NCBI GenBank assembly: GCA_016191145.1
Contig: JACPPD010000015.1
Span: forward strand, 80,100-144,099
Length of the DNA stretch: 64,000 nt
Direction: 5' to 3'
From: Ignavibacteria bacterium
GTDB lineage: Bacteria > Bacteroidota > Ignavibacteria > Kapaibacteriales > Kapaibacteriaceae
Part shown: positions 5,793-22,496 of the stretch, piece after piece
How the letters are laid out: each line of letters starts with the position of its first letter
Numbering within the stretch: the stretch's first letter is position 1
Program-made: the position numbers and the translations under genes
Notes under the pieces: model-generated
Seen by the model: only the letters and a program-made list of their open reading frames with translations
The model's database searches: none
What the model was told of the DNA's origin: nothing

Positions 5793-5867
5793 TTTGGACG
5801 CACCTGGAATGTCTTGGCAAACAGTGGTGTCGCAGCTTGAGAATGCCGGGAGTGATATGCTGCCGGG

Positions 5868-5962
5868 GAACTTGCCGGGAGGCATATGCTGCCGGCGTTT
5901 CTCCCGGCGTTTCTCCCGGCGTTTCTCCCGGCGTTTCTCCCGGCGTTTCTCCCGGCAAGTTC
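5868..5962 (+). repeat. 12-bp minisatellite flanked by inverted arms
   Basis: Five tandem copies of a 12-bp unit (CCGGCGTTTCTC register, 5892-5951) lie between a 12-bp inverted pair, GAACTTGCCGGG at 5868-5879 and CCCGGCAAGTTC at 5951-5962. Frames across it give only monotonous repeats, so it is not coding. The rest of 5705-6078 holds the terminator just upstream and the leader hairpin of rpsD; I see no gene in it. Confidence 0.85.
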
Positions 5963-11657: not shown

Positions 11658-11731
11658 CGGCGTATAGCGCAGCCCGGTAGCGCACCACTTTGGGGTAGTG
11701 GGGGTCGTGGGTTCAAATCCCGCTACGCCGA
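11658..11731 (+). tRNA. tRNA-Pro (anticodon GGG)
   Basis: A full 74-base cloverleaf: acceptor CGGCGTA/TACGCCG, D stem GCGC/GCGC, anticodon stem CCACT/AGTGG with loop TTGGGGT giving anticodon GGG, T arm GCGGG-type with TTCAAAT loop, discriminator A. CCA is not encoded. It marks the left edge of the accessory region. Confidence 0.95.
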
Positions 11732-12032
11732 CGGAAGTAGAATGAAGTCAAGTAGTTAAGCGAAATAGAGATAACGGTTTGAGGCAGCTTTGTGAATTGA
11801 CTTATTGAATCTAAGCCTAAATACCTGTATAACATTGGCAACATACGCGCATTCCAATCAATCTCCGTACATGATCGAGCAGCTTTGAGGGTGCCATTCC
11901 TGACGAGTGCTTTAATTCTCACTGTAATGTAACCGGGCAGCTTTCTGGCTCTGAATTAATTGCATTAATAACGTCATTGATTGTTTCTAAGAAGTCATTG
12001 GCGGAGAAGGTTTTTCAATTGAAAATAGTTTA
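11732..12032. other. AT-rich gap without a recognisable gene
   Basis: The 300 or so bases between tRNA-Pro and the toxin-antitoxin operator show no open frame with a credible start. I found no integrase gene and no second copy of the tRNA 3' end elsewhere in the window. Confidence 0.6.
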
Positions 12033-12060
12033 TACGTATATTGTACGTACAATGTACGTA
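12033..12060 (+). promoter_or_regulatory. Probable autoregulatory operator of the toxin-antitoxin pair
   Basis: TACGTA occurs three times at exactly 11-bp steps (12033, 12044, 12055), and the middle one is the centre of a perfect 14-bp palindrome ATTGTACGTACAAT (12040-12053). It ends 14 bases before the antitoxin ATG. Ribbon-helix-helix antitoxins are known to bind such repeated short palindromes cooperatively along one DNA face, which fits; binding here is inferred. Confidence 0.7.
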
Positions 12061-12074
12061 AGAAAGAAGTTGTC

Positions 12075-12374
12075 ATGCCAGCCACTGAAAGAATAGACCT
12101 CAGAATCGATTCTGCCAGCAAAAAGAAGGTGGATAGATTCTCAAAACGACAAAAAATCTCAAGTTCCCAATTCATCAAGACGGCGATTGAGTATTATATG
12201 CGCTACCTTGAAGTGAAAGAATCTGAAACAATCACGTTATCGCGAGAAGAATTTTCAATTCTAAGTAAGCTTATTGCCACTGAAGAGGAACCAAATAAAA
12301 AGCTGACAAAGGCTGCGGAAGAATATCGTCGGTTCACTCTGAGAAAGTCCAAGCCTTTGAAGAATGATCACTAA
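12075..12374 (+). CDS. DUF1778-type antitoxin (ribbon-helix-helix)
   Basis: A 99-residue protein starting TERIDLRIDSASKKKVDRFS, the classic DUF1778 N-terminal beta strand and first helix, followed by ISSSQFIKTAIEYYM. This forms the DNA-binding ribbon-helix-helix; the charged C-terminal part would wrap and neutralise the toxin. The start has a GAAAGAAG purine run before it. It overlaps the GNAT toxin gene by 11 bases, the usual antitoxin-first arrangement. It likely represses its own promoter through the TACGTA array directly upstream. Confidence is high for the family, moderate that the pair is active. Confidence 0.88.
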   Translation: MPATERIDLRIDSASKKKVDRFSKRQKISSSQFIKTAIEYYMRYLEVKESETITLSREEFSILSKLIATEEEPNKKLTKAAEEYRRFTLRKSKPLKNDH

Positions 12375-12861
12375 GAGATTCGACCCAAGTGTCCGCAGGC
12401 GCGATTCGTTTGACTGTGGGGAAGACACTGTCAACGATTTCATGATGACGAAGGCCAAACAATGGACAAAAAAGGGTCTTTCAGCCTGCTGGATTTTGGA
12501 GGGAGACCAGAGAGGCTCGATTGCGGGATTTTACACGCTCAGTGCACTTTCAATTCCGAGCGAACAAGCTCTTAAAGCAGGATCTAAAGATTTACCACAA
12601 GCGATGGACATTCCTGCAATTCTCATCGGTCAATTGGGTGTAGACAAAGGGTATCAAGGCAAAGGATATGGTACTAAACTATTGATGGACTCACTAAAAA
12701 GAGTGTTGTCCAATCAGGATATTGCTTGGTCTTGTGTAATTGTAGACGCACTCAACGATCGCGTGGCAAGATGGTATGAAGAGTACGGCTTTAAGAGGGT
12801 CTCAACGGAGCCAATTCGATTGGCGATTGCGCGAACAACTGTACAGAAATTGATCTTATAA
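12364..12861 (+). CDS. GNAT-family acetyltransferase toxin (TacT/AtaT-like)
   Basis: A 165-residue GNAT acetyltransferase. The start FDPSVRRRDSFDCGEDTVNDFM is the standard opening of the TacT-like toxins (F-C-G---LN-FL pattern). The acetyl-CoA binding motif is GYQGKGYG (about residues 98-105) and the catalytic Tyr region is RWYEEYGF (about 138-145). Characterised relatives acetylate the amino group of aminoacyl-tRNA and stop translation. Its 11-base overlap with the DUF1778 gene supports the toxin role rather than a housekeeping acetyltransferase. Target tRNA cannot be read from the sequence. Confidence 0.88.
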   Translation: MITKRFDPSVRRRDSFDCGEDTVNDFMMTKAKQWTKKGLSACWILEGDQRGSIAGFYTLSALSIPSEQALKAGSKDLPQAMDIPAILIGQLGVDKGYQGKGYGTKLLMDSLKRVLSNQDIAWSCVIVDALNDRVARWYEEYGFKRVSTEPIRLAIARTTVQKLIL

Positions 12862-12883
12862 TTTTTGAGCGAATTGACACCTC

Positions 12884-13006
12884 GTGCCCGACCTTAAACC
12901 TTCCCACAAGCCAATCAAAGACTACTTCACCGAACTCGCACAGTTCGAGAAACACGGTCACTCCAGCGAGATAACCATGCGCAATGCATTTCTGGATCTG
13001 CTGTAA
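12884..13006 (+). pseudogene. N-terminal fragment of a type ISP restriction-modification enzyme
   Basis: A GTG-started 40-codon frame reads KPIKDYFTELAQFEKHGHSS and then EITMRNAFLDLL before a TAA. This closely resembles the first residues of the very large single-chain type ISP restriction-modification enzymes (LlaBIII-like), which are about 1500 residues long. Nothing of the helicase, methylase or nuclease parts follows, so it is a relic. The call rests on recognising this short stretch by memory. Confidence 0.6.
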
Positions 13007-13040
13007 ATGTTGGCGATGAAAGTGCAATGACAGGCTGCCC

Positions 13041-13324
13041 CTTCCCCCCACTTTACCTTCAATCTTCTACTCCACTCCGCATGCCGAATATCTCTTGATA
13101 CCCGGCATCATAACTGGTGTGGCATTCGATCCCGCATTTTCCAGTGTTAGTGTGTCACGTTCGGCCTGACATCCTGCACCGCATACTCCTTTCACACAAA
13201 CCCGCTCTGAATCAATGCCTCTGTTACACTCAACATTTCCTCTTGTTTGTTCATCGCTCCACTTTCGTATGTTGTGGCGCGAAAATATTTCATAATTTAG
13301 TTGAATGAAAGATGCACTTGCTGG
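13041..13324 (+). repeat. Interspersed repeat, copy A (near full length)
   Basis: Bases 13041-13306 align without gaps to copy B at an offset of 4008, with about 32 mismatches by hand count. It contains the hairpin element ATGCCGAATATC-TCTT-GATACCCGGCAT (13081-13108, imperfect here). On the minus strand a 20-codon frame starts with ATG at 13254 and ends with TGA at 13192; an AAGGAG and a GTG (13179) follow. No transposase is encoded. Confidence 0.85.
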
Positions 13325-13404
13325 CGTACATATGTTGTGACCTTGAGAAACGAAAGACTTGAAGAATATATTTGTGGTGATCTTTAGCATGTTCCCCGTG
13401 AAGC

Positions 13405-13716
13405 GTGGCGCTTCATAAAAAAAATATCAGGAATCGACGCTACTCAACTCTCAAGAACACCACACTGGATGTATTCGTAGGTGCGTACATTCGTAAACGA
13501 CGATTGACTAAGGTGAGTGTCTATTTTGTGGGACCAGCCCTCACACGCAGCGTCACCAATTGGTGCACACCGGATCAGCGATTGCGATGGGCTTCATTTG
13601 CTGCGCTTACAGCAGAACGACGTATGAACAAACTCCACAACCACAAACACACACCAACACTGGCGAAAGCAATTTCAGATTTTCTTCGTAAATCGAAGCG
13701 GAGCAAGGACTCGTGA
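13405..13716 (+). CDS. Hypothetical small basic protein (uncertain)
   Basis: A 103-codon frame with a GTG start and no convincing ribosome site. The product is basic (many Arg, Lys and His), with the segment AYIRKRRLTKVSVYFVGPAL near residues 25-45 and a helix-like C-terminal tail. Part of it (AYIRKRRLTKVSV) is echoed as TYFRKQHLAKTSV in a broken frame at 20388-20427, so it belongs to a repeated sequence and may itself be a relic of a mobile or recombined gene. It lies in the 150-550 bases after repeat copy A. I do not recognise the family. Confidence 0.3.
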   Translation: MALHKKNIRNRRYSTLKNTTLDVFVGAYIRKRRLTKVSVYFVGPALTRSVTNWCTPDQRLRWASFAALTAERRMNKLHNHKHTPTLAKAISDFLRKSKRSKDS

Positions 13717-13868
13717 TATTTCAACTAAGAATTGGACACTGCCATCCTCAGTTCACCATAAAATACTATTTTTTTTTAATAACGCAAATGTTATATTGAA
13801 TAGTGAAGATAATTACTGCGCTATTGTGTTGCTTGACAACGTCATTCCGTAGTTAAGAGCGGGTTAAA

Positions 13869-14222
13869 ATGAAAGGAATCATGAGAACATTTTTGATCTG
13901 CTTGCTTTTTGTGTTGGTTCCGAACGTTAGTAGAGTTTACAGTTTCCAGGCCACCTTTAGAGTTTATACGTTTCCAACAATAGCCAATCAGATGTTCACG
14001 ATTGCGATAAGAAATTTTGATCGTGCACCTAGCGACTCCTTGGACATTTCAGTATATCACATTTCCGGAGTACTTTTTTGGCATACGCAGGAACCTCTAC
14101 TAAAGTCCCTGGGTGATAACGACATTACAATCAATTGTTCAAGCTGGCCGATTGGACCTTACTTTTGTCACATTACAAATGGCATTGGAAGGGAAACTAT
14201 CAAAATGGCGATCGTTAGGTAG
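13869..14222 (+). CDS. Short secreted protein resembling an isolated T9SS sorting domain
   Basis: A 117-residue protein with a signal peptide (MRTFLICLLFVLVPNVSRVYS region) followed almost immediately by a domain that looks like a type A T9SS C-terminal sorting signal: a strand with DISVYHISGVLFW, then WPIGPYFCHITNG and a basic ending KMAIVR. In normal cargo proteins this 75-85-residue domain follows a large passenger; here there is no passenger. It could be a truncated cargo, a decoy or ligand for the secretion machinery, or a small surface protein. It opens a co-directional run of secreted proteins between repeat copies A and B. Confidence 0.6.
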   Translation: MKGIMRTFLICLLFVLVPNVSRVYSFQATFRVYTFPTIANQMFTIAIRNFDRAPSDSLDISVYHISGVLFWHTQEPLLKSLGDNDITINCSSWPIGPYFCHITNGIGRETIKMAIVR

Positions 14223-14265
14223 TGCAGCTTGTACCTTTCTTCATTTTCTGTCACAGGAGTATTTT

Positions 14266-14670
14266 ATGAAGATATATATTTTAATTGCAGCACTGCTTAT
14301 TGCCGTATGCATTTATGACGCAAATGCATATTATAAGCGGGTCGCTAAAGGTGGTCGATCGAATGGAGGTGGTGCTGTGACGTATTATGTTGTTTCCGTT
14401 CACACTGATATGTGGGGAACATCAATTTGGTGTGAAGGAGATGGCAATAATGGTTGTCCTTATACGGCTTCAGCTGTCACCCAACAGGAATCAGATGCAC
14501 GAGATTGGGTTCTGGATCAGATTTCACAGAACGTTATAACTGGCGACGGTTACGCACCAAACGGCAAACGAGCCAAGTGGTCGGCAAGTGCTTCTATGAA
14601 TCCTGTTAATGTGAATATCTGGGTTTGGGGCATTTCGGAAAGTTTACCTAGCGATTACTTTGACTATTGA
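14266..14670 (+). CDS. Small secreted protein of unknown family
   Basis: A 134-residue protein. The start at 14266 is chosen because AGGAG at 14255-14259 lies six bases upstream and a signal peptide follows directly (MKIYILIAALLIAVCIYDANA). The mature part of about 113 residues is Gly-rich at first (KGGRSNGGG), then has two cysteines (IWCEGDGNNGC) and many Trp, ending in an acidic SLPSDYFDY tail. A strong hairpin terminator follows. Small signal-peptide-bearing proteins next to lipoproteins and thioredoxin-like proteins recall the NVEAL-type loci of Bacteroides, but the NVEAL motif itself is not present, so this is only an analogy. Confidence 0.6.
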   Translation: MKIYILIAALLIAVCIYDANAYYKRVAKGGRSNGGGAVTYYVVSVHTDMWGTSIWCEGDGNNGCPYTASAVTQQESDARDWVLDQISQNVITGDGYAPNGKRAKWSASASMNPVNVNIWVWGISESLPSDYFDY

Positions 14671-14693
14671 AAAGGACATTTGCAGTGTCGCGC

Positions 14694-14740
14694 ACGGTTT
14701 GTTGCTATATTCAACTGTAGCAACAAACCGTTGTGTTTGT
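14694..14740 (+). terminator. Strong stem-loop terminator
   Basis: A 14-bp perfect inverted repeat: ACGGTTTGTTGCTA at 14694-14707 and TAGCAACAAACCGT at 14718-14731, with a 10-base loop and a T-rich tail (TGTGTTTGTC). It lies 23 bases after the secreted-protein stop and probably ends that transcript, at least partly separating it from the lipoprotein genes. Confidence 0.8.
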
Positions 14741-14790
14741 CAGAATATTTTCTATTAGAAAAGTTCCCCAATGGTGGTTTCTTTCCGAGA

Positions 14791-15141
14791 ATGAAACACT
14801 TTCTTTCTTTGCTGACTTTTGCATGCTTGTTGGTTTCATGCTTGCCACAGAAAAATGACGTTATGATTGTCGAACTGGATTCAATCAGCCTATGCGGATT
14901 TTATTCTGTTGAACTTACCGTAGACAACGCAGAATCGATTCATGCTGTAGCTCGTGGAAGGGGACATGAATGTTTGCCACAGTCTGTTCCGGGGAAGTAT
15001 CGCGACCGTTGGAAGGTAGTCATATCAGTGATTCAGGTGATGGAGAACGATGGACTTCATCGTGAATCAATCGATACTGTGATTAACTACGTCCGAATAG
15101 TTGGGATGGCAGAAAAGTATACATTAACTGTTGGTGAGTAA
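14791..15141 (+). CDS. Putative lipoprotein of unknown function
   Basis: A 116-residue protein beginning MKHFLSLLTFACLLVSC, a typical lipoprotein signal with the lipid-bearing Cys at residue 17. The open frame extends upstream into the terminator hairpin, so the ATG at 14791 is preferred although its ribosome site is weak. The mature part is short, mixed alpha/beta in appearance, with a DSISLCGFYSVELTVDN segment. Its end overlaps the start of the next lipoprotein gene by a few bases, and a third gene overlaps that, so the three probably form one operon. No family recognised. Confidence 0.6.
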   Translation: MKHFLSLLTFACLLVSCLPQKNDVMIVELDSISLCGFYSVELTVDNAESIHAVARGRGHECLPQSVPGKYRDRWKVVISVIQVMENDGLHRESIDTVINYVRIVGMAEKYTLTVGE

Positions 15142-16333
15142 ACTTCTCATGAGCATTATTTTGATGGCACTGCTGTTGGTCTTGTGTTGTGGATGTTCGT
15201 CTGAAGTGCCCAGGGAAAGAATGTCTCTGACGAAATCGGTACCTACTGATATCCCATTTTCAGCTCGAGTTGTTCAAGCACCATCTCCTGATGGCACATT
15301 TGTAGTAGCATTCCACAGAAATATTGATACGCTCACAGTTTATAGATACGATCGCTATTTGGCTAGGATTGATTCTCAGGCAGTTTCGATTCGCGAAGCC
15401 ATAGGTGCATCACCAAGCATAAATGCTCCAAGTGCTATTCAGATTATCGGAGGTCGGCTTTTCGCACTATATTATGAAGGTATTATCAGTGTGAATCTGG
15501 ATTCGCTGGGTAAATCCGACGTGAAGTTCATACCAACTTCTGAACCGTTCACACAATTCTTTGTTAATGATGACATCATAATTTTAGGACGCTTTTACGA
15601 TGCGGTGTTCGGAAATAGCAGGTGTGTGCTTGCTTGCTACGACCTCAGGGGAAATTTCTTGTATCGTACTAATCTCGACATTCGATCCGTTGTCATGACG
15701 CGCTTACTTCCGTGCAATTTCGCGTCGTTCTCCGGCAACACTTGTGTTGTAGTCGATCCTCTCGACATGACAATATTGCAGCTCTCGTGTACGCGTACAG
15801 GCCTCGACACAATTTTTTACGGGCAGCTTAAAATCGATGATCGTTATAAAAAACCTGATGTCGATAGCATATTACAACAAACGACTGGGATAGAGGCACG
15901 ATTACAGATTGATCGCATCATGGACTTCGTAACTAAGGAAGGATCCAGTATCAAGCAAGTTGTATTGTTTGATGACAGCACACTTTATATCGCACGCAAT
16001 AAGCCATCGCAACTCGCCAAGAGATCGTTCGAATACACGTTGACCTTCTACCGAATTTCAGACGACAAATCGCCTCAGGAGTTATTAAGTTTTGTTTCTC
16101 CCGGGTTTGAATCTGATTACATAGTAAATCACTCCAGACCTTTCGTTTTTGCTTACAATAACCCACCTATTAGAGTTGATAAAAAACACTTCATTTGTAT
16201 TGGTATGTTTTCACACGACTCGATGGAAGGGACAAACAAGTCCGCACGCGATGTTTTTCAATCCGTCTTTGCTGCGTATCAGAAGGGTGCTCCAATGACA
16301 TATTCTATATTTAAGTATAAAGTGGATTTATGA
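15134..16333 (+). CDS. Lipoprotein resembling six-bladed beta-propeller proteins
   Basis: About 399 residues. GTG at 15134 is preferred over ATG at 15149 because it adds a Lys to the signal peptide (SKLLMSIILMALLLVLCC); the lipobox is LCCGC. The mature part has repeated short strands (DTLTVYRYDRYLARID, VLACYDLRGNFLYRTN, QLSCTRTGLDTIFYGQ) and aromatic/Asp-Gly turns, the look of the lipidated six-bladed propellers common in Bacteroidota. It overlaps genes on both sides: eight bases with the small lipoprotein upstream and four with the thioredoxin-like gene downstream, so the three are likely translated together. Ligand unknown; the fold assignment needs a profile search. Confidence 0.6.
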   Translation: MSKLLMSIILMALLLVLCCGCSSEVPRERMSLTKSVPTDIPFSARVVQAPSPDGTFVVAFHRNIDTLTVYRYDRYLARIDSQAVSIREAIGASPSINAPSAIQIIGGRLFALYYEGIISVNLDSLGKSDVKFIPTSEPFTQFFVNDDIIILGRFYDAVFGNSRCVLACYDLRGNFLYRTNLDIRSVVMTRLLPCNFASFSGNTCVVVDPLDMTILQLSCTRTGLDTIFYGQLKIDDRYKKPDVDSILQQTTGIEARLQIDRIMDFVTKEGSSIKQVVLFDDSTLYIARNKPSQLAKRSFEYTLTFYRISDDKSPQELLSFVSPGFESDYIVNHSRPFVFAYNNPPIRVDKKHFICIGMFSHDSMEGTNKSARDVFQSVFAAYQKGAPMTYSIFKYKVDL

Positions 16334-16821
16334 ACGGACCTAAATGGATATTTCTTCTTGGGACCATTCTGATTGCTTGTGAACTGTCGTATATAAAGGA
16401 ATCGCAATTTCCGGGGAATGACATTGATTGGCTGCGTGATTTCAGTCCAGATCGCGACACTGTCTCAATCATCGTTCTTAGCGCCAACTACTGTAAACCT
16501 TGTGTTTTCGATCTTGTCGAAGCAATTCTAAAGAAAGACAGCGCGTTGCCGTTTGTGCCTATTTATACAACATCAATTAACAACTGGGTTGGAGCCCGAT
16601 TGTTGTCGGATCAGTTTCATCAGTCTTCGAAGGCAACATTCAACGTTGGTTATTGCAAAGCCTATGAAAGTTCGTCAGTTTCGTTAGTAGACTCTTTAGC
16701 AGCCATTTCAAAGAAGAAGTCACCATTTATCATTCAAACTGTATCCAATCGTATTAATCGGGTAATACCATACGACTCCCTCTTTAATAATGATGGCGAA
16801 TTTAAAACTGGCGTATTATGA
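16330..16821 (+). CDS. Thioredoxin-like lipoprotein or periplasmic protein
   Basis: A 163-residue protein whose ATG overlaps the preceding stop (ATGA). An N-terminal hydrophobic segment with Cys (LLGTILIAC) suggests a lipoprotein. At about residues 50-60 it has VLSANYCKPCVFDLVEA, a CxxC motif after a beta strand and before a helix as in thioredoxin-fold redox proteins, though the Trp usually before CxxC is Tyr-like. The chain is shorter than TlpA-type proteins and lacks an obvious cis-Pro block. Coupled with the propeller-like lipoprotein it may act on disulphides of the small Cys-containing secreted protein encoded upstream; that link is inference. Confidence 0.55.
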   Translation: MNGPKWIFLLGTILIACELSYIKESQFPGNDIDWLRDFSPDRDTVSIIVLSANYCKPCVFDLVEAILKKDSALPFVPIYTTSINNWVGARLLSDQFHQSSKATFNVGYCKAYESSSVSLVDSLAAISKKKSPFIIQTVSNRINRVIPYDSLFNNDGEFKTGVL

Positions 16822-16849
16822 ACATCTTTCAATTTATAGCAACTGGGGT

Positions 16850-17000
16850 GGTCCTGAAATTGTAGACACTCTCCTTAGTCGTTATCTATCAGACTGACAC
16901 AAAGAGAAGATCATGAAGAGGGGTTTTAGAATTTTCGATGAAGAATATAAACGACACGTATTACACATGGTTGAGACATATCCGCCCCAACAATTACACC
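16850..17000 (+). mobile_element. Left-end relic of an IS3-like insertion sequence
   Basis: A GGTCCTGAAATTGTAGACAC stretch (about 16851-16870) resembles the terminal inverted repeats of IS3-family elements. Forty bases on, an AGAGAAG ribosome site and ATG at 16913 begin a frame MKRGFRIFDEEYKRHVLHMV, similar to the start of IS3 OrfA helix-turn-helix proteins. The similarity fades after about 30 codons where repeat copy B takes over. No OrfB or right end is present, so it is a remnant. Recognised by pattern only. Confidence 0.4.
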
Positions 17001-17048
17001 TTACAAGTCAGCTGAGCAGTTTTTTGTCGATGCGACGAGACAAGTTGT

Positions 17049-17331
17049 CTTCCCCCCTCTTTACCTCCAACCCTCCACTCCACCCCCCATGCCGGGTATC
17101 TCTTGATACCCGGCATCATAACTGGTGTGGCGTTCGATACCGCACTTTCCATTGTTGCTGTGCCACATTCGGCCTGACATCCTGCACCGCGTACTCCTTT
17201 CACGCGAACCCGCTCTGAATCAATGCCTCTGTCACACTCAACATTTCCACCTGCCTGTTCATCTCTCCACTTTCGTATGTTGTGACGCGAAAATATTTCG
17301 TCACTCGGTTGAATAATTGGGGACTTGCTGG
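17049..17331 (+). repeat. Interspersed repeat, copy B (full length)
   Basis: Best-preserved copy. It carries a perfect hairpin, ATGCCGGGTATC (17089-17100), TCTT loop, GATACCCGGCAT (17105-17116). On the minus strand lie two consecutive mini-frames: ATG at 17262 to TGA at 17200 (20 codons) and, after an AAGGAG, GTG at 17187 to TGA at 17116 (23 codons), ending exactly at the hairpin. It sits between the IS3-like relic and the M1 peptidase gene. Confidence 0.88.
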
Positions 17332-17386
17332 GGCGGATTCTTTGCTACAACGCTTTCTTTTCGTACCACAATAAATCGTATTGCGT

Positions 17387-19660
17387 ATGAATTTTCATTT
17401 GTACTGCCTGCTGTTTTTGAGTTGCGTTCTCACACTTAATGCCCAGTCGACAAATCGATATTTCGAATTGCGCAACCAGGTCAAGACTGTGCGCGTTGAT
17501 TCCAATTCGGTTAGAAGTGTCAGTGGAATATTCTACGAACATGGTCTCATTTCCGTAATTCTTGATTCTGGTTCAATCGCACTAGCCGAGCCAATCAACG
17601 GTAATCAAATTGGAGTTGTGTTTATTGGAAAGGGGTCGGTTTCTTTCCGACCGAATATGGAGACCGAACGAACGAACCTCATGCGGTTTATTCACTCTGA
17701 AGTTTTTGTGGTTGATATTTCTAAGGCTGTATTCATTACAACGGACAAAGAATTTCTGACGCTGGTCAACGATCAACCAAAGGGTGGCAGCAGAGAAGGA
17801 ATGTCGAAACTGATCGATGCCTATTGGTCTTCTCTGGCTATGGGAGAGCAGGACACATTGATGGATGAAACTTTTGCTAAGACTTTTCTGAATGGCTTTC
17901 AGAAGGATTTCATGCTGATGCGGATTGGGAATCCTACAGGCACGGATGCTATCCTTGCTTATAATCCATACGCAATTGAACCCTACCTACTCGAACTGCG
18001 TGCGGATAAGAAGTTTCATATTAGTGATCCTACGCTGGTCTGCCAGTGTCAGGCCGACAACATCATTGCAGAAACTTCCAATGATGGAGTTGATGATGGT
18101 GACCTCATTAGAACACTTAAACACGTCGCAAATATTGATATTCAAAGAAACCTCGATCTCGCTGGCAGCGATCAGGTAGACATGAAGGTAAACGAAGACT
18201 CGGTACGTTGGATCAATTTTGATTTGTACCCGACTCTAACACTTGATTCAGTTACCTTCAATGACTCGACTGCTGCGTCGCGAGCTTTGCTGACATTTAT
18301 TCGCGCAAAAGAATCAGCGACGGCGTGGGTGGAACTTCCAAGGACACTGTATTTAGACAACAAGTTCAGTTTGACGTTCTACTATCATGGTGATGTGATT
18401 GAACGAATCGAAGATTATCCGATTCTGGTTACGTCTATGATGTGGTATCCGGCGCACTCATATTTCCACAAGACAATTTTCGACGTCTCGTTTACATATC
18501 CATCGTCCATGACATTAGCATCAGTCGGACGCAGGACAGCATTCACAACTGTAGACGACAGGCTTCATGCTCGATGGGAATCTATAAATGCAGTTCGTAA
18601 TTACTCCTTCCACATTGGCTTCTTTAAACGAAAGGTTATTGAAGCTAACGGCGTTGCACCAAAAGCTGTTGTGCTTTATACAACACCAGATCAGGTAGAC
18701 GTTGTAGCTCAGGACATTCAACAATCTCTGCTTTTTTTCTCAAGACTCTTTGGAAAACTACCTATCGATTCTTTGATTGCAACGGAGCTGCCGGGTAATC
18801 ACGGTGAATCCTTCCCAGGCTTACTTCATTTATCGTGGCAGACATTTTATACGTCTGACAATTATGATTTTTTTGCCGAGCAATTCATTGCTCACGAGGT
18901 AGCCCATCAGTGGTGGGGATCCAATCTCGATTTCAAATCGTATAGAGATCAGTGGTTGAGTGAGGGTTTTGCAGAGTACTCAGCGTTGATGTATTCACAG
19001 CTTGCCTCTTCCGATGCAAAAAAATTCTTCAAACTCCTCAATTCATATAAAGCAAAGATCCTTTCCTATGGCAAGCGATTTATGAGCAAAGATTTAGCGC
19101 CCCCTGCCATCAGTCTTGGATACAGAGTCAACATTGGTTCTTTACAGCCGGACGCCTACAGCATTTTTGTGTACTATAAAGGGGCTTGGGTGCTTCACAT
19201 GCTAAGAAATATGATGTTAAATATTAGTACAATGAATGAGGAGACATATTTTACGGTAATGCGTACGTTTTATACACAGTACCAAGGCAAAAGGACTTCA
19301 ACAGATGAATTTCGGAAAACGATTGAGCAGTTAACAGGAACGGACCTGGGATGGTTTTTCGATCAGTGGGTGTATGGCAATGCGATTCCAAAGTACACGT
19401 ATGCGTGGAAGAAGGAGAAGCAGCAGGATGGGAAATGGAAAATCACTATGAGAATTAAACAATCTGACGTGCCAGCCTCGTTCCAAATGTATATCCCACT
19501 GAAAATTACATTCGACGATGATGCACTAACGCGACTGCGCATTGTTGTAACAGGTGAAGAATCCATAATAGAGCTGCCACTTTTTGAAAAGGAACCAGAT
19601 GCATTGACCTTTAACGATCTCTCGTCTGTGCTTTGTGATGTTGATGAAGAGTCGTTCTAA
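17387..19660 (+). CDS. Secreted M1-family metallopeptidase
   Basis: About 757 residues with a signal peptide ending near LNAQS. The zinc site is HEVAHQWWGSN with the third ligand Glu in LSEGFAEYSALMY, the M1 (gluzincin) HEXXH-18-E arrangement, around residues 500-525. A catalytic Tyr lies in YKGAWVLHML. The exopeptidase GxMEN motif is not evident: the equivalent position reads TELPGNHGESFPGLLHLSW, so N-terminal recognition may differ. The N-terminal 200 residues are poorly conserved. The ATG at 17387 is preferred to a TTG six bases earlier. It lies between repeat copies B and C. A periplasmic or surface aminopeptidase is likely. Confidence 0.88.
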   Translation: MNFHLYCLLFLSCVLTLNAQSTNRYFELRNQVKTVRVDSNSVRSVSGIFYEHGLISVILDSGSIALAEPINGNQIGVVFIGKGSVSFRPNMETERTNLMRFIHSEVFVVDISKAVFITTDKEFLTLVNDQPKGGSREGMSKLIDAYWSSLAMGEQDTLMDETFAKTFLNGFQKDFMLMRIGNPTGTDAILAYNPYAIEPYLLELRADKKFHISDPTLVCQCQADNIIAETSNDGVDDGDLIRTLKHVANIDIQRNLDLAGSDQVDMKVNEDSVRWINFDLYPTLTLDSVTFNDSTAASRALLTFIRAKESATAWVELPRTLYLDNKFSLTFYYHGDVIERIEDYPILVTSMMWYPAHSYFHKTIFDVSFTYPSSMTLASVGRRTAFTTVDDRLHARWESINAVRNYSFHIGFFKRKVIEANGVAPKAVVLYTTPDQVDVVAQDIQQSLLFFSRLFGKLPIDSLIATELPGNHGESFPGLLHLSWQTFYTSDNYDFFAEQFIAHEVAHQWWGSNLDFKSYRDQWLSEGFAEYSALMYSQLASSDAKKFFKLLNSYKAKILSYGKRFMSKDLAPPAISLGYRVNIGSLQPDAYSIFVYYKGAWVLHMLRNMMLNISTMNEETYFTVMRTFYTQYQGKRTSTDEFRKTIEQLTGTDLGWFFDQWVYGNAIPKYTYAWKKEKQQDGKWKITMRIKQSDVPASFQMYIPLKITFDDDALTRLRIVVTGEESIIELPLFEKEPDALTFNDLSSVLCDVDEESF

Positions 19661-19741
19661 CTGAAAATTCCAGGGAACACTGACTACAGTTTGCTCAAAG
19701 AAAATCTCCTGATTATGGTTGATATGGTTAACTGATTTATC

Positions 19742-19759
19742 CCGAACACCAATGTTCGG
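19742..19759 (+). terminator. Possible hairpin terminator after the M1 peptidase
   Basis: CCGAACA at 19742-19748 pairs perfectly with TGTTCGG at 19753-19759 around CCAA. The following bases are AT-rich but without a clean T run. Apart from this, 19661-20461 holds a tRNA-like relic, repeat copy C, an 18-bp palindrome and a broken frame, but no gene I can support. Confidence 0.4.
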
Positions 19760-19858
19760 AAATATATGTTAAGAATGGCAGCTACACTGATTGCTGTGAA
19801 TAGACGCGAGTGTTATATCAAGTCTTATATTTTAAGAAAAATGAAGATACAGAGAACA

Positions 19859-19918
19859 ATTGGCACAGGAAACCACCATTTACGCGTCCAGGTCGCAGGT
19901 GCGATCCCGCCTGCCAAT
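19859..19918 (+). pseudogene. Degenerate tRNA-like element
   Basis: ATTGGCA (19859-19865) can pair with TGCCAAT (19912-19918) as an acceptor stem. Just before the 3' arm lies a T-arm-like stretch, GCAGG-TGCGATC-CCGCC, in the correct register for a tRNA (loop close to TTCGATC, outer pairs kept, inner pairs mismatched). Only about 60 bases separate the ends and no anticodon arm can be drawn, so it is at most a decayed or deleted tRNA, or a chance fold. Confidence 0.35.
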
Positions 19919-19950
19919 TGAACAAAGATCAATCCTAACTGTAATTTCTA

Positions 19951-20100
19951 GCATTGCTGTGTCACATTTGGCCTCACATCCTGCACCGCGTACTCCTTTC
20001 ACGCGAACCCGCTCTGAATCAATGCCTCTGCCACACTCAACGTGTCCTCTTGCATGCTCATAGCGCTACTATCATAAGATGTGATGAGGAACAATATCAT
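19951..20100 (+). repeat. Interspersed repeat, copy C (partial)
   Basis: Matches the right-hand 150 bases of copies A and B, including the conserved block around CTCTGAATCAATGCCTCTG, but lacks the hairpin. On the minus strand it keeps the first mini-frame (ending QSGF-Ala then TGA), the AAGGAG and the start of the second (KEYAVQDVRPNV in the same frame). Confidence 0.8.
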
Positions 20101-20382
20101 AAAAAAGTAGAGTAAAAAGCGACATGCTAGAGCCGATATAATAAGACAGTATCGCCAATAGCTTAAGCATCCCTATAAAGTACGGTAGAGTATGAGTCAC
20201 CATGATCATTGGTAAGACAATACACTGGTGCAATCGTTGTTCTCGATACTCAAGTCTGAGAGGATTGACCTCATGGACTTCAGTTTGTCTAACCATAGGA
20301 GTTTCGAATTCTGAAATTATATCGAATATTACAATCAACGACACCTGAATTCATCAGTCGGATACACTACGCCATTAGGGTC

Positions 20383-20400
20383 CGAAAGTACGTACTTTCG
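20383..20400 (+). promoter_or_regulatory. 18-bp perfect palindrome
   Basis: CGAAAGTACGTACTTTCG reads the same on both strands. It lies 62 bases upstream of the next gene's ATG, a plausible operator position, but no regulator is encoded nearby. The 48 bases from 20388 also resemble 13481-13527 inside the small basic frame, so the palindrome may instead be part of a repeated element. Confidence 0.4.
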
Positions 20401-20435
20401 TAAACAACACTTGGCTAAAACCAGTGTCAGATCTT
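20388..20435 (+). repeat. Relic of the sequence also found at 13481-13527
   Basis: The two stretches agree at roughly three of four bases; the frame here reads TYFRKQHLAKTSV and then stops. It follows repeat copy C as its partner follows copy A, so the two repeats share a second module. Confidence 0.5.
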
Positions 20436-20461
20436 GAGGTGACAACCCAATTTTCAAAAAC

Positions 20462-22306
20462 ATGCTCCGATTGCGACGATATGAAATACTGCTGGTGATA
20501 CACACAATTTGCGTGTTTCATACCGTTTGCGGCCAAACACAATATGACTCTGCCTATATGCGCGCTGGAGGGCATGGTCTCGTGTATGCAGGCGCAGGGA
20601 CGTTTGTTGGCGGGTATTTGCTTTGTAACAACGGATCATACAATTCAGCAGAACAAGGTTGTCCGGGCAATTTTGTCAAGCGCTCTTTTGATGGCGGGGT
20701 GACGTGGAAATACGACACCGTGCGTACGCCAGAACCGTCGCTGGACCAGGTTGTTCGCTTGGCGAACGGACAGTTGATTGCAGCCTCTACCTTGTTCAGA
20801 AATGGATTCAATGCCAGTGTTGATGGTGGGCAAAATTGGCAGACATTGTCAGAGGGTACCGGTCCAGCATACTCGCCAACTGTTTGGGGCCGAAGACTGA
20901 GTCGAGACGCCAATGGCAATTTGTATTGGGTAGACACCTATGGCAGAGGATTTTGCAGCATTGATGGCGGTTTGACTTCGATAGAAATAGAAAGCTGGGA
21001 CGTTGGGCAAATGGACGATTTGTACATTATCGGTCATGGTATCCTGGCCGTAAAAAGAAATTTTACAGGTGCGATTGAATTCGAGGTAATAATTACCACA
21101 AACAACGGAATCTCATGGCGGAGGTTGTGGCCCCGTAAGAACGAACACGTTAGTGCCAGACAGTGGGGAATTACACTTATTTATGATACTCTCGTAGTAG
21201 AGATTCATACTAACGATACCGGACTGGTTTATTCGTATTTGAGATATGACATCGATGCTGACAGTCTTGTTGAGGCTCCTGAATTAGAAATGTGTTTTTC
21301 GAATGGCAACGTGCTCGACAGTGCAGGCTATAGTTATACCGCGCAATATCTCTTTCTCAGTGGTGGGAAACGAGGTAAGGACGATTGTGAGTATTTGATT
21401 AGGGCGGCAGAAGTACCCGATGATGATCCACGGCTCCCACCCGGTGGACTGCCGCAAAGCGCAGGGGGAATCTATGGTGTTTTCATGGACATTGAAGGCA
21501 ACATTCATCCGTATGGATCTGAGGTATACGTACAGGCAAATGCTCCGAGACCCATTTCAGTGCTGGATAGAATCTTGGACTGCAATCGCATAACGTATGT
21601 TCTTGGTGGTCCAAAGATGGGTTCAATCAGGCTCATTGAGAAAGCCAGTACCAATGCTGAGCTGCGATTTCGTGTTGAACTTAATAGACGGATTGCTGAA
21701 ATCGAGGTCAGTAAAATCGACACAACCCGTTCAATGTCATACCAGTTGATCATTGTGGGTAACGGTATTCAGGATACTCTCATCATCGCCGATTCGACCT
21801 ATAGCAGTCTTCCTTCAAAGCCAGTGATCAAGGTCATCGGCAGAAATGACAGGGTTACGGCGCTTCAGGTCGAATGGACGCAGGGTCCATTTTATTGGCT
21901 GCGAAACGGTGAAAAACTACGTACCCTTTCAGGCGACGCCGTTATGATTTCTCCGTTAGTCGATATTTCGTCAGGAGTTTATTCAGTTGTCGCGCGCGAC
22001 GCAAATGGTTGCCTTGTAACCTCCGATGATGTTTCGGTGCTGACGACTAGCTTGTTTGATGAAAGCGGACAAGTAGGTGAAATAGGTATTCATAGGGATG
22101 ACGGCAACAGGCTTGTGATCGAATCCAAAGCGTTGGACTTAGTAGGCTGCGTTGTCAGAGTCTACAACATGATAGGTCAGCTATTGCTCGAGCAGGAGCT
22201 TGGCGGAGGAAAGGGCAGAACATTCGAAATTGAAACACGTGCTGTTGGCCCCGTCCTGATCCGCATTGACGGTGGAGATGTACACTTTGCAAAGTTGATC
22301 CTTTGA
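20462..22306 (+). CDS. Secreted T9SS cargo protein with BNR-like and Ig-like parts
   Basis: A 614-residue secreted protein with an Arg-rich signal peptide (MLRLRRYEILLVIHTICVF). The N-terminal 330 residues show repeated Asp-box-like turns (SFDGGVTWK, SVDGGQNWQ, TTNNGISWR) as in BNR/sialidase-type propellers. Around residues 475-520 an Ig-like segment has PFYWLRNGEKL and YSVVARDANGC. The last 75 residues (VVRVYNMIGQLLLEQE then VGPVLIRIDGGDVHFAKLIL) resemble a type A T9SS sorting domain, so it is probably exported to the cell surface. The ribosome site is weak, so the start is moderately certain. Lies between repeat copies C and D. Confidence 0.75.
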   Translation: MLRLRRYEILLVIHTICVFHTVCGQTQYDSAYMRAGGHGLVYAGAGTFVGGYLLCNNGSYNSAEQGCPGNFVKRSFDGGVTWKYDTVRTPEPSLDQVVRLANGQLIAASTLFRNGFNASVDGGQNWQTLSEGTGPAYSPTVWGRRLSRDANGNLYWVDTYGRGFCSIDGGLTSIEIESWDVGQMDDLYIIGHGILAVKRNFTGAIEFEVIITTNNGISWRRLWPRKNEHVSARQWGITLIYDTLVVEIHTNDTGLVYSYLRYDIDADSLVEAPELEMCFSNGNVLDSAGYSYTAQYLFLSGGKRGKDDCEYLIRAAEVPDDDPRLPPGGLPQSAGGIYGVFMDIEGNIHPYGSEVYVQANAPRPISVLDRILDCNRITYVLGGPKMGSIRLIEKASTNAELRFRVELNRRIAEIEVSKIDTTRSMSYQLIIVGNGIQDTLIIADSTYSSLPSKPVIKVIGRNDRVTALQVEWTQGPFYWLRNGEKLRTLSGDAVMISPLVDISSGVYSVVARDANGCLVTSDDVSVLTTSLFDESGQVGEIGIHRDDGNRLVIESKALDLVGCVVRVYNMIGQLLLEQELGGGKGRTFEIETRAVGPVLIRIDGGDVHFAKLIL

Positions 22307-22368
22307 ACGACCAGCAATGTTGTTTTGATTTTCTCCGGCTATAGCTTCAACCTTTCACACATTTTCCA

Positions 22369-22413
22369 TGTCTTGTATCTCTTGATACCCGGCATCGTGG
22401 TCGGTGTGGCGAT
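22369..22413 (+). repeat. Interspersed repeat, copy D (hairpin fragment)
   Basis: Keeps TATC-TCTT-GATACCCGGCAT and the following GGTGTGGCG of copies A and B over about 45 bases. The left hairpin arm has decayed (ATGTCTTGTATC). It lies 62 bases after the T9SS cargo gene and marks the right limit of the repeat family. Confidence 0.65.
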
Positions 22414-22496
22414 TTTTCATCAGTTTTCATGCTTTCACATAGCCTTTCAGGAATTAATTTCTGAAATAAGATAGCGAGGTCTTAAAACTCGTAATT

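Follow-up and report, generated by a model that had tools for sequence, protein, structure and literature searches.

Introduction

Four similar repeats, all in one orientation and each lying between blocks of genes, raise the question whether a stretch of an Ignavibacteria bacterium genome (64,000 nucleotides of contig JACPPD010000015.1, positions 80,100 to 144,099, referred to below as the window) harbors a system for moving or exchanging genes or something more ordinary. The original prediction, made from the letters alone, described two long copies (A and B), two partial ones (C and D) and a perfect hairpin in B as a repeat family punctuating secreted-protein genes, for which a non-autonomous mobile element, a recombination site shuffling gene cassettes and the remains of a repeated gene were offered as explanations. 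Here, we addressed these possibilities by following the repeats through the source genome (G000, the own genome below), that of a sister species (G001) and those of congeners (including G002, G003, and G004). The observation is a composite, combining the body of an insertion sequence (IS) of the IS66 family with a separate family of hairpins resembling repetitive extragenic palindromic (REP) sequences. The account that we regard as probable is that IS66 remnants carry an untagged, lineage-specific REP-like palindrome, the sites of which predate the split of the two species and the centers of which have been rewritten in place.

Results

The Repeats Are a Composite of an IS66 Body and a Separate Hairpin

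The repeats were reproduced as described: A (13041-13306) and B (17049-17314) share 88% identity without gaps over 266 bp and are followed by partial copies at 19938-20137 (C; 77% identity to B over the 200-nt reference and 86% over 131 nt) and 22366-22411 (D; 83% over 46 nt). The orientation is identical in all four, with a chance probability of 1 in 8, and the 21-mer and 49-mer cores match the window three times each, a number reached in 0 of 100 shuffles; the repeat signal is therefore confirmed as real and beyond chance. The hairpin of B proved as perfect as had been claimed, its 12-bp stem having no mismatch, and the 28-nt palindrome core recurs in A and D and is absent from C. The copies and their cores are as follows.

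13041..13332, minus strand: copy A, an IS66 left-end remnant with the start of tnpA, a damaged inverted repeat and the palindrome; the right end is missing
13081..13108, plus strand: palindrome core of A, with two mismatches to the consensus
16978..17340, minus strand: copy B, an internally deleted IS66 derivative of 363 bp with both ends, similar to a miniature inverted-repeat transposable element (MITE)
17089..17116, plus strand: palindrome core of B, with the 12-bp stem fully paired and the loop TCTT
19938..20086, minus strand: copy C, an internal piece of the IS66 left end without the palindrome
22366..22411, plus strand: copy D, the palindrome (core 22368-22395, three mismatches) with about 17 bp of element context

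Searching the own genome with copy B gave 98 matches at E up to 10, which are not 98 copies since palindromes match on both strands; the long element was found at few places and a palindrome of about 30 bp at many. Alignment among the long copies placed the long body or part of it at eight more sites of the genome, and blast among them extended the homology to one common end. On own contig C19 (L039), the same end is followed by a reading frame, where family searches detected the TnpA accessory protein NF047593 (E 2.8e-18), LZ_Tnp_IS66 (E 2e-6) and the DDE transposase NF033517 (E 4.7e-83); since the transposase is split over two overlapping frames, this IS66 copy looks damaged. B aligns with both of its ends (IS 12-172 with 17346-17187, 75%, E 2e-23; IS 1982-2042 with 17039-16979, 61 bp, 77%, E 4e-7), with order and strand as in an internally deleted element. 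A (IS 27-197 with 13324-13154, 74%, E 4e-26) and C (IS 72-172 with 20086-19986, 70%, E 4e-7) align as well, and tblastn with TnpA marked the minus strand of B (E 4e-9), A (E 3e-8) and C (E 6e-5). The body of about 200 bp is the left end of an IS66-family element with the start of tnpA on the minus strand. Both IS66 ends are also present in the copy C5_25907, the right one being weak (E 0.004), and the side of A away from the left end adjoins a gene fragment (12885-13033).

Since B has both IS66-type ends, it can be taken as an internally deleted, MITE-like remnant, possessing, as an IS66-derived MITE does, both parental ends and no full gene; as far as alignment tells, A, C and D are IS66 fragments and B is an internally deleted derivative. 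The proposal of a non-autonomous mobile element thus holds for B in respect of its ends and lack of a complete gene; it receives no help from the suggested search for target duplications, since inspection by eye of two copies, B and that on C19, revealed none, and B is for this reason regarded as an old remnant. The remains of a repeated gene are present insofar as the body corresponds to the 5′ part of tnpA by tblastn, but A to D descend from an IS element and are not tandem gene copies. Duplication in tandem of one ancestral gene at the locus, named in advance as the outcome contrary to mobility, would suit four copies in one orientation and a body derived from a reading frame; the IS ends in B and the presence of copies with unrelated flanks on other contigs speak against it, and the genome-wide occurrence of the repeats refutes it, leaving hardly any credence for such a history.

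A separate tandem array with a period of 138 bp and 4.3 copies lies at L161 1732-2326 (own C15:434231-434825), each unit containing a stretch like the IS66 left end, that is, a repeated IS end.

A Family of Untagged REP-Like Palindromes

The palindrome, present in about 60 copies, is the main repeat of the composite. Its consensus is ATGCCGGGTATC-TCTT-GATACCCGGCAT, and the pattern GGGTATCN{2,6}GATACC, which scores each copy on both strands, occurs in the genome 54 times forward and 55 times reverse against 0 and 0 for the reversed control pattern. From fetched stretches, 57 hairpins were listed, 47 of them perfect 28-mers, with 13 mismatches in 1596 nt altogether; the list missed C13:27541 and hairpins with other centers, and a fuller census comprises 61 in the own genome, where the center is TCTT or AAGA in 55 of the 61. 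According to a crude call of open reading frames (ORFs; at least 80 aa), 37 of the 57 lie between ORFs (17 convergent, 13 tandem, and 7 divergent) and 20 inside them, ten of these ORFs being shorter than 120 aa, and the family can be called REP in the broad sense of a short repeated palindrome found mainly outside genes. Semi-conservation continues into the flanks for about six positions, AYCAYS on each side, amounting to 4.2 bits over the six positions versus 0.8 for the next six, and neither GTAG nor CGTC tags were found within 12 nt, on both strands, at any of the 114 ends. Twelve doublets are formed by 24 of the 57 hairpins, with centers spaced by 45-46 bp (eight) or 55-57 bp (four); by loop direction nine are convergent, one is divergent and two are direct, so that 10 of 12 are inverted.

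In the window, the 11-mer arm is found exactly four times (once in A, twice in B, and once in D) and once with a mismatch, where 0.92 is expected at up to one mismatch. With so few matches, half sites are not common in the window, and half sites resembling uptake sequences were rejected. As for the picture of repeats punctuating secreted-protein genes, the palindrome is not specific to the locus and occurs throughout the genome. In the 57 hairpins, the two bases adjoining the arms on the outside, read on one strand, tend to be the same letter (C/C in 22 and G/G in 15, versus 18 mixed; Fisher p 0.015), which is the opposite of pairing.

A search of relatives with B, as had been proposed, added to the further copies across the own genome a match in one of five congeners and in none of 54 other relatives. 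With the arms as pattern, 22 genomes gave 52 occurrences in the own genome, 28 in the sister species and none in the other 20, and the exact 28-mer was met among the genome contigs searched in six stretches, all from one metagenome-assembled genome, SW_29 (the collection may omit the own genome and very close neighbors of it). The palindrome family is lineage-specific, untagged and REP-like. At C7:35202, the same convergent gene pair exists in G002, G003 and G004 without such a hairpin, which was therefore either gained in the lineage of G000 and G001 or lost in the others; for C6:67116, each stretch fetched from the congeners contained only one of the flanking genes.

Sites Are Shared by Two Species, Most Centers Are Not

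For 19 of 22 hairpin loci of the sister species, the matching stretch of the own genome also bears a hairpin, and one more was matched by direct search, giving 20 of 22 with two unmatched. The comparison of arms and centers comprised 22 hairpin pairs from 19 loci, omitting L171 and L185, which had no match, and L184, which was matched later and has the same center with one arm difference. Within the pairs, 5 of 484 arm positions differ between the species, and the flanks, taken up to 60 nt on each side, are identical at 1604 of 1933 aligned positions (83%, counting aligned columns only and excluding sides shorter than 40 nt); a re-alignment of the flanks covered 20 pairs (without L188, L189 and the second L186 pair, but with L184). 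The center is of another type in 16 pairs, inverted in three and identical in three, and the loop direction is flipped at three of the six sites where both species have the same center type. In the alignments, the hairpin stands at the same base, and the close flanks are preserved on one or both sides, L170/L060 and L180/L062 having them preserved on both. Among 31 centers counted in the sister species, with one hairpin probably entered twice through the overlap of its contigs C178 and C83, 17 are CCGTA, seven TCTT or AAGA and seven others; its hairpins at C124, C224 and C266:3724 lay outside the examined set. A candidate for a fresh hairpin, at C208 of the sister species, was rejected because the own genome has a hairpin at the same place (C13).

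Thus, at sites shared by two species we show fixed arms with changed or inverted centers. Since independent mutation is unlikely to produce one particular 6-nt center from one 5-nt center at many sites, copying between hairpins is likely, and the pattern suggests an exchange of hairpin centers in place.

Host Selection and RAYT-Driven Insertion as Alternatives

Arms held by the host would offer a different reason for uniformity: the palindrome could be a protein-binding site or a bidirectional terminator, in which a DNA-binding protein or RNA folding keeps the arms constant while the center serves as a free spacer. Near-invariant arms beside diverged flanks, the placement of 17 of the 37 intergenic copies between convergent genes, and two classes of doublet spacing differing by about one helical turn are all consistent with this. 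A free spacer would, however, drift site by site, yet the centers of the own genome are uniform in all but a few copies, and the gene pair of C7:35202 goes without the hairpin in three congeners. Paired flank positions are mostly devoid of covariation (positions -9/20 form 20 Watson-Crick pairs versus 26 expected), with the exception of -13/24, which exceeds expectation (27 versus 17.2), so that selection for an RNA structure was rejected; within the arms, covariation is not assessable because they hardly vary. Taken together, a binding site or terminator appears unlikely.

The other alternative is a classical family of REPs and of REP doublets forming hairpins (REPINs), inserted at new sites by a REP-associated tyrosine transposase (RAYT). 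The own genome does encode three proteins above the curated cut-off for RAYT, and a fourth Y1 gene, just past the C19 IS66 copy, matches IS200-type transposases only under the cut-off; moreover, a large share of the hairpins stands in doublets that are mostly inverted by loop direction, which might suggest a REPIN, in which the inverted doublet is the spreading unit. Doublet orientation, however, means little here, because loop direction flips between the species at half of the same-center sites. The flanks of the three RAYT genes hold other arrays, a 29-bp unit being of the same kind, and a hairpin search revealed no palindrome in the stretches fetched around them, so that the arrangement of a REPtron, with copies flanking the RAYT gene, was not seen and a RAYT-linked REP expected beside these genes was rejected. 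The ends of the palindrome lack GTAG and CGTC, and nearly all examined sites are shared between the species and hence not new. A RAYT survey of 23 genomes gave a match in 16, above the cut-off in four, and none in the sister species. Insertion of this classical type is accordingly doubtful, albeit conceivable.

Tandem arrays of the kind flanking the RAYT genes are also present in the window at 5850-5956, including 5.4 perfect copies of the 12-bp unit CCGGCGTTTCTC, and the related 29-bp array unit occurs at many places in the own genome and the sister species.

The Locus of the Window in the Sister Species

Besides the repeats, the region contains the following features.

12885..13033, plus strand: fragment of a large gene that G004 has, near the same tRNA-Pro, as an ORF of 1034 aa
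13444..13540, plus strand: 3′ remnant of an IS3-family transposase after A; the homologous ORF of the sister species matches NF033516 transpos_IS3 with E 2.9e-10, under the cut-off as a fragment
20162..20439, plus strand: second IS3-family transposase remnant, after C; 71% to own contig C14 and 74% to contig C83 of the sister species
20449..22308, plus strand: gene-sized segment with sharp ends lying off the repeats; 98% to contig C55 of the sister species and 86% to own C14

The large gene with the 1034-aa ORF is probably of restriction-modification type. With regard to transposases, which had been reported as missing, no whole gene lies near the copies, but an IS66 copy with the same end exists elsewhere in the genome and two IS3 remnants lie inside the region.

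In the sister species, a perfect overlap of 99 bp containing the palindrome connects contigs C178 and C83, and their joined order is a rhomboid gene, tRNA-Pro, TIR and caspase-type genes, the gene fragment, the palindrome, the IS3 remnant and nadA. The IS3 remnant there matches both of those in the window (82% to 13444-13539 and 74% to 20303-20427), and a related series of fragment, palindrome, IS3 and IS66 is found on own contig C14. A block of about 8.9 kb (13541-22443), including B, C and D, is absent at the locus in the sister species on the basis of the contig overlap, a result bearing on the variation in block presence that the original prediction had proposed to check. The segment 20449-22308 (also L157 3207-5066) is 98% identical to its counterpart on C55 as opposed to 84-88% for neighboring genes, and in C55 and own C14 the shared stretch around it extends to about 2.2 kb; genes have therefore moved recently, but not at the repeats.

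A cassette array, with the repeats acting as recombination sites for the exchange of blocks, could draw on the missing block and on the high identity of its gene across species. The junctions of the recently moved gene, 20449 and 22308, are nevertheless situated outside the repeats, the repeats are IS ends, and the layout in the sister species depends on a contig overlap. Cassette recombination was rejected because recent gene junctions miss the repeats, and the shuffling of cassettes at these sites, which the first description had offered as one possibility, must be considered very improbable. The locus is a variable region linked to tRNA-Pro and strewn with the debris of IS66 and IS3, and the feature observed in the window is ordinary IS66 debris carrying members of the REP-like family. 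For the window itself this is a sobering result, as the repeats are IS debris and not a cassette system.

Several further elements were noticed around the locus. The tRNA-Pro at 11658-11732 was the sole tRNA called by ARAGORN in the window, and a pair of genes for a TacA-like antitoxin and a GNAT acetyltransferase lies in the tRNA-Pro-linked variable region (window 11658-13033; L155 1573-4204), which in the sister species carries ThsB-type TIR and caspase genes. Just before C, at 19860-19920, a short inverted repeat faintly resembles by eye the 3′ half of a tRNA, and at 13572-13753 there is a further dispersed repeat with matches on own C15, C2 and C6 and on C38 and C170 of the sister species.

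Discussion

Sites that predate the split of two species and centers rewritten in place probably give the best description of the palindromes carried by the IS66 remnants. The hairpins would have spread before the split, and those at fixed sites may afterwards have taken over very short tracts from other copies. Candidate agents are template switching, gene conversion from one hairpin to another, or an HuH enzyme, such as a RAYT, that cuts and rejoins the DNA; rewriting of this kind would keep the arms uniform and let one center type replace another. Tentatively, the population can be pictured in greater detail as evolving by in-place replacement, with the 11-nt arms as the recognition unit at sites fixed before the split and centers of 5-6 nt being copied and flipped in tracts of at most 28 nt. 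TCTT would then have swept through the majority of sites in one genome and roughly a quarter of those observed in the sister species without occupying new sites, the agent being perhaps a RAYT or HuH-type hairpin cutter or template switching.

Several points weigh against the account of fixed, rewritten sites. Flank alignment is poor at a number of them, only 19 of 40 sides reaching at least 12 ungapped identities in 20 positions. Hairpins of the sister species were found via intact arms, so that arm conservation is partly selected, the own side being less biased (a hairpin is present on that side at 20 of 22 loci). The genome of the sister species is 80% complete and in 300 contigs, and the own genome contains about twice as many hairpins, many sites of which may lack one in the sister. 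The lack of a RAYT hit in the latter argues against RAYT as the agent there. As for the IS66 part, B and the C19 copy show no target duplication by eye, and the right end in B spans 61 bp only.

The palindrome family is of greater interest than the locus, given its apparently fixed sites and the apparent exchange of its centers. With sites and arms in common and centers that differ, the two genomes offer a direct readout, for each site, of whether a hairpin was copied in place or inserted anew, and the pattern may show how hairpin families stay uniform. In the literature searched, with subscription papers outside its coverage, no description was found of the palindrome or of center exchange at shared REP sites. 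A 1988 work of Higgins, McLaren and Newbury, to judge by its title, is said to propose that REP sequences evolve by gene conversion, and the pattern of fixed sites with changed centers would fit gene conversion as so titled.

Compared with known systems, the window repeats resemble IS66-family IS elements and MITEs in their terminal inverted repeats, the start of tnpA, the two ends of B and the lack of coding capacity, differing by the REP-like palindrome between the ends and by the lack of visible target duplications. The likeness of the palindromes to REPs and REPINs, as presented in PMC3116915, consists in short, repeated, mostly extragenic palindromes, occurrence as singlets and doublets, and RAYT genes in the genome. 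In that source, 61% of REPs in SBW25 are in doublets and sites differ strongly between relatives, whereas here 42% are in doublets, no copy was found beside a RAYT gene, and sites are shared between species. The GTAG and CGTC superfamilies are described in PMC3733652 as intergenic sequences of 20-40 bp, often between convergent or unidirectional genes, the CGTC type having a stem of 8-9 bp that starts with AT and loops of 4-5 nt. Our palindrome agrees with them in size and intergenic siting and, for the CGTC type, in the AT start of the stem and a loop of 4-5 nt; it stands outside both superfamilies in having no tag, a 12-bp stem and a degenerate AYCAYS flank on both sides. The mechanisms of REP dissemination are called poorly understood in PMC8266576.

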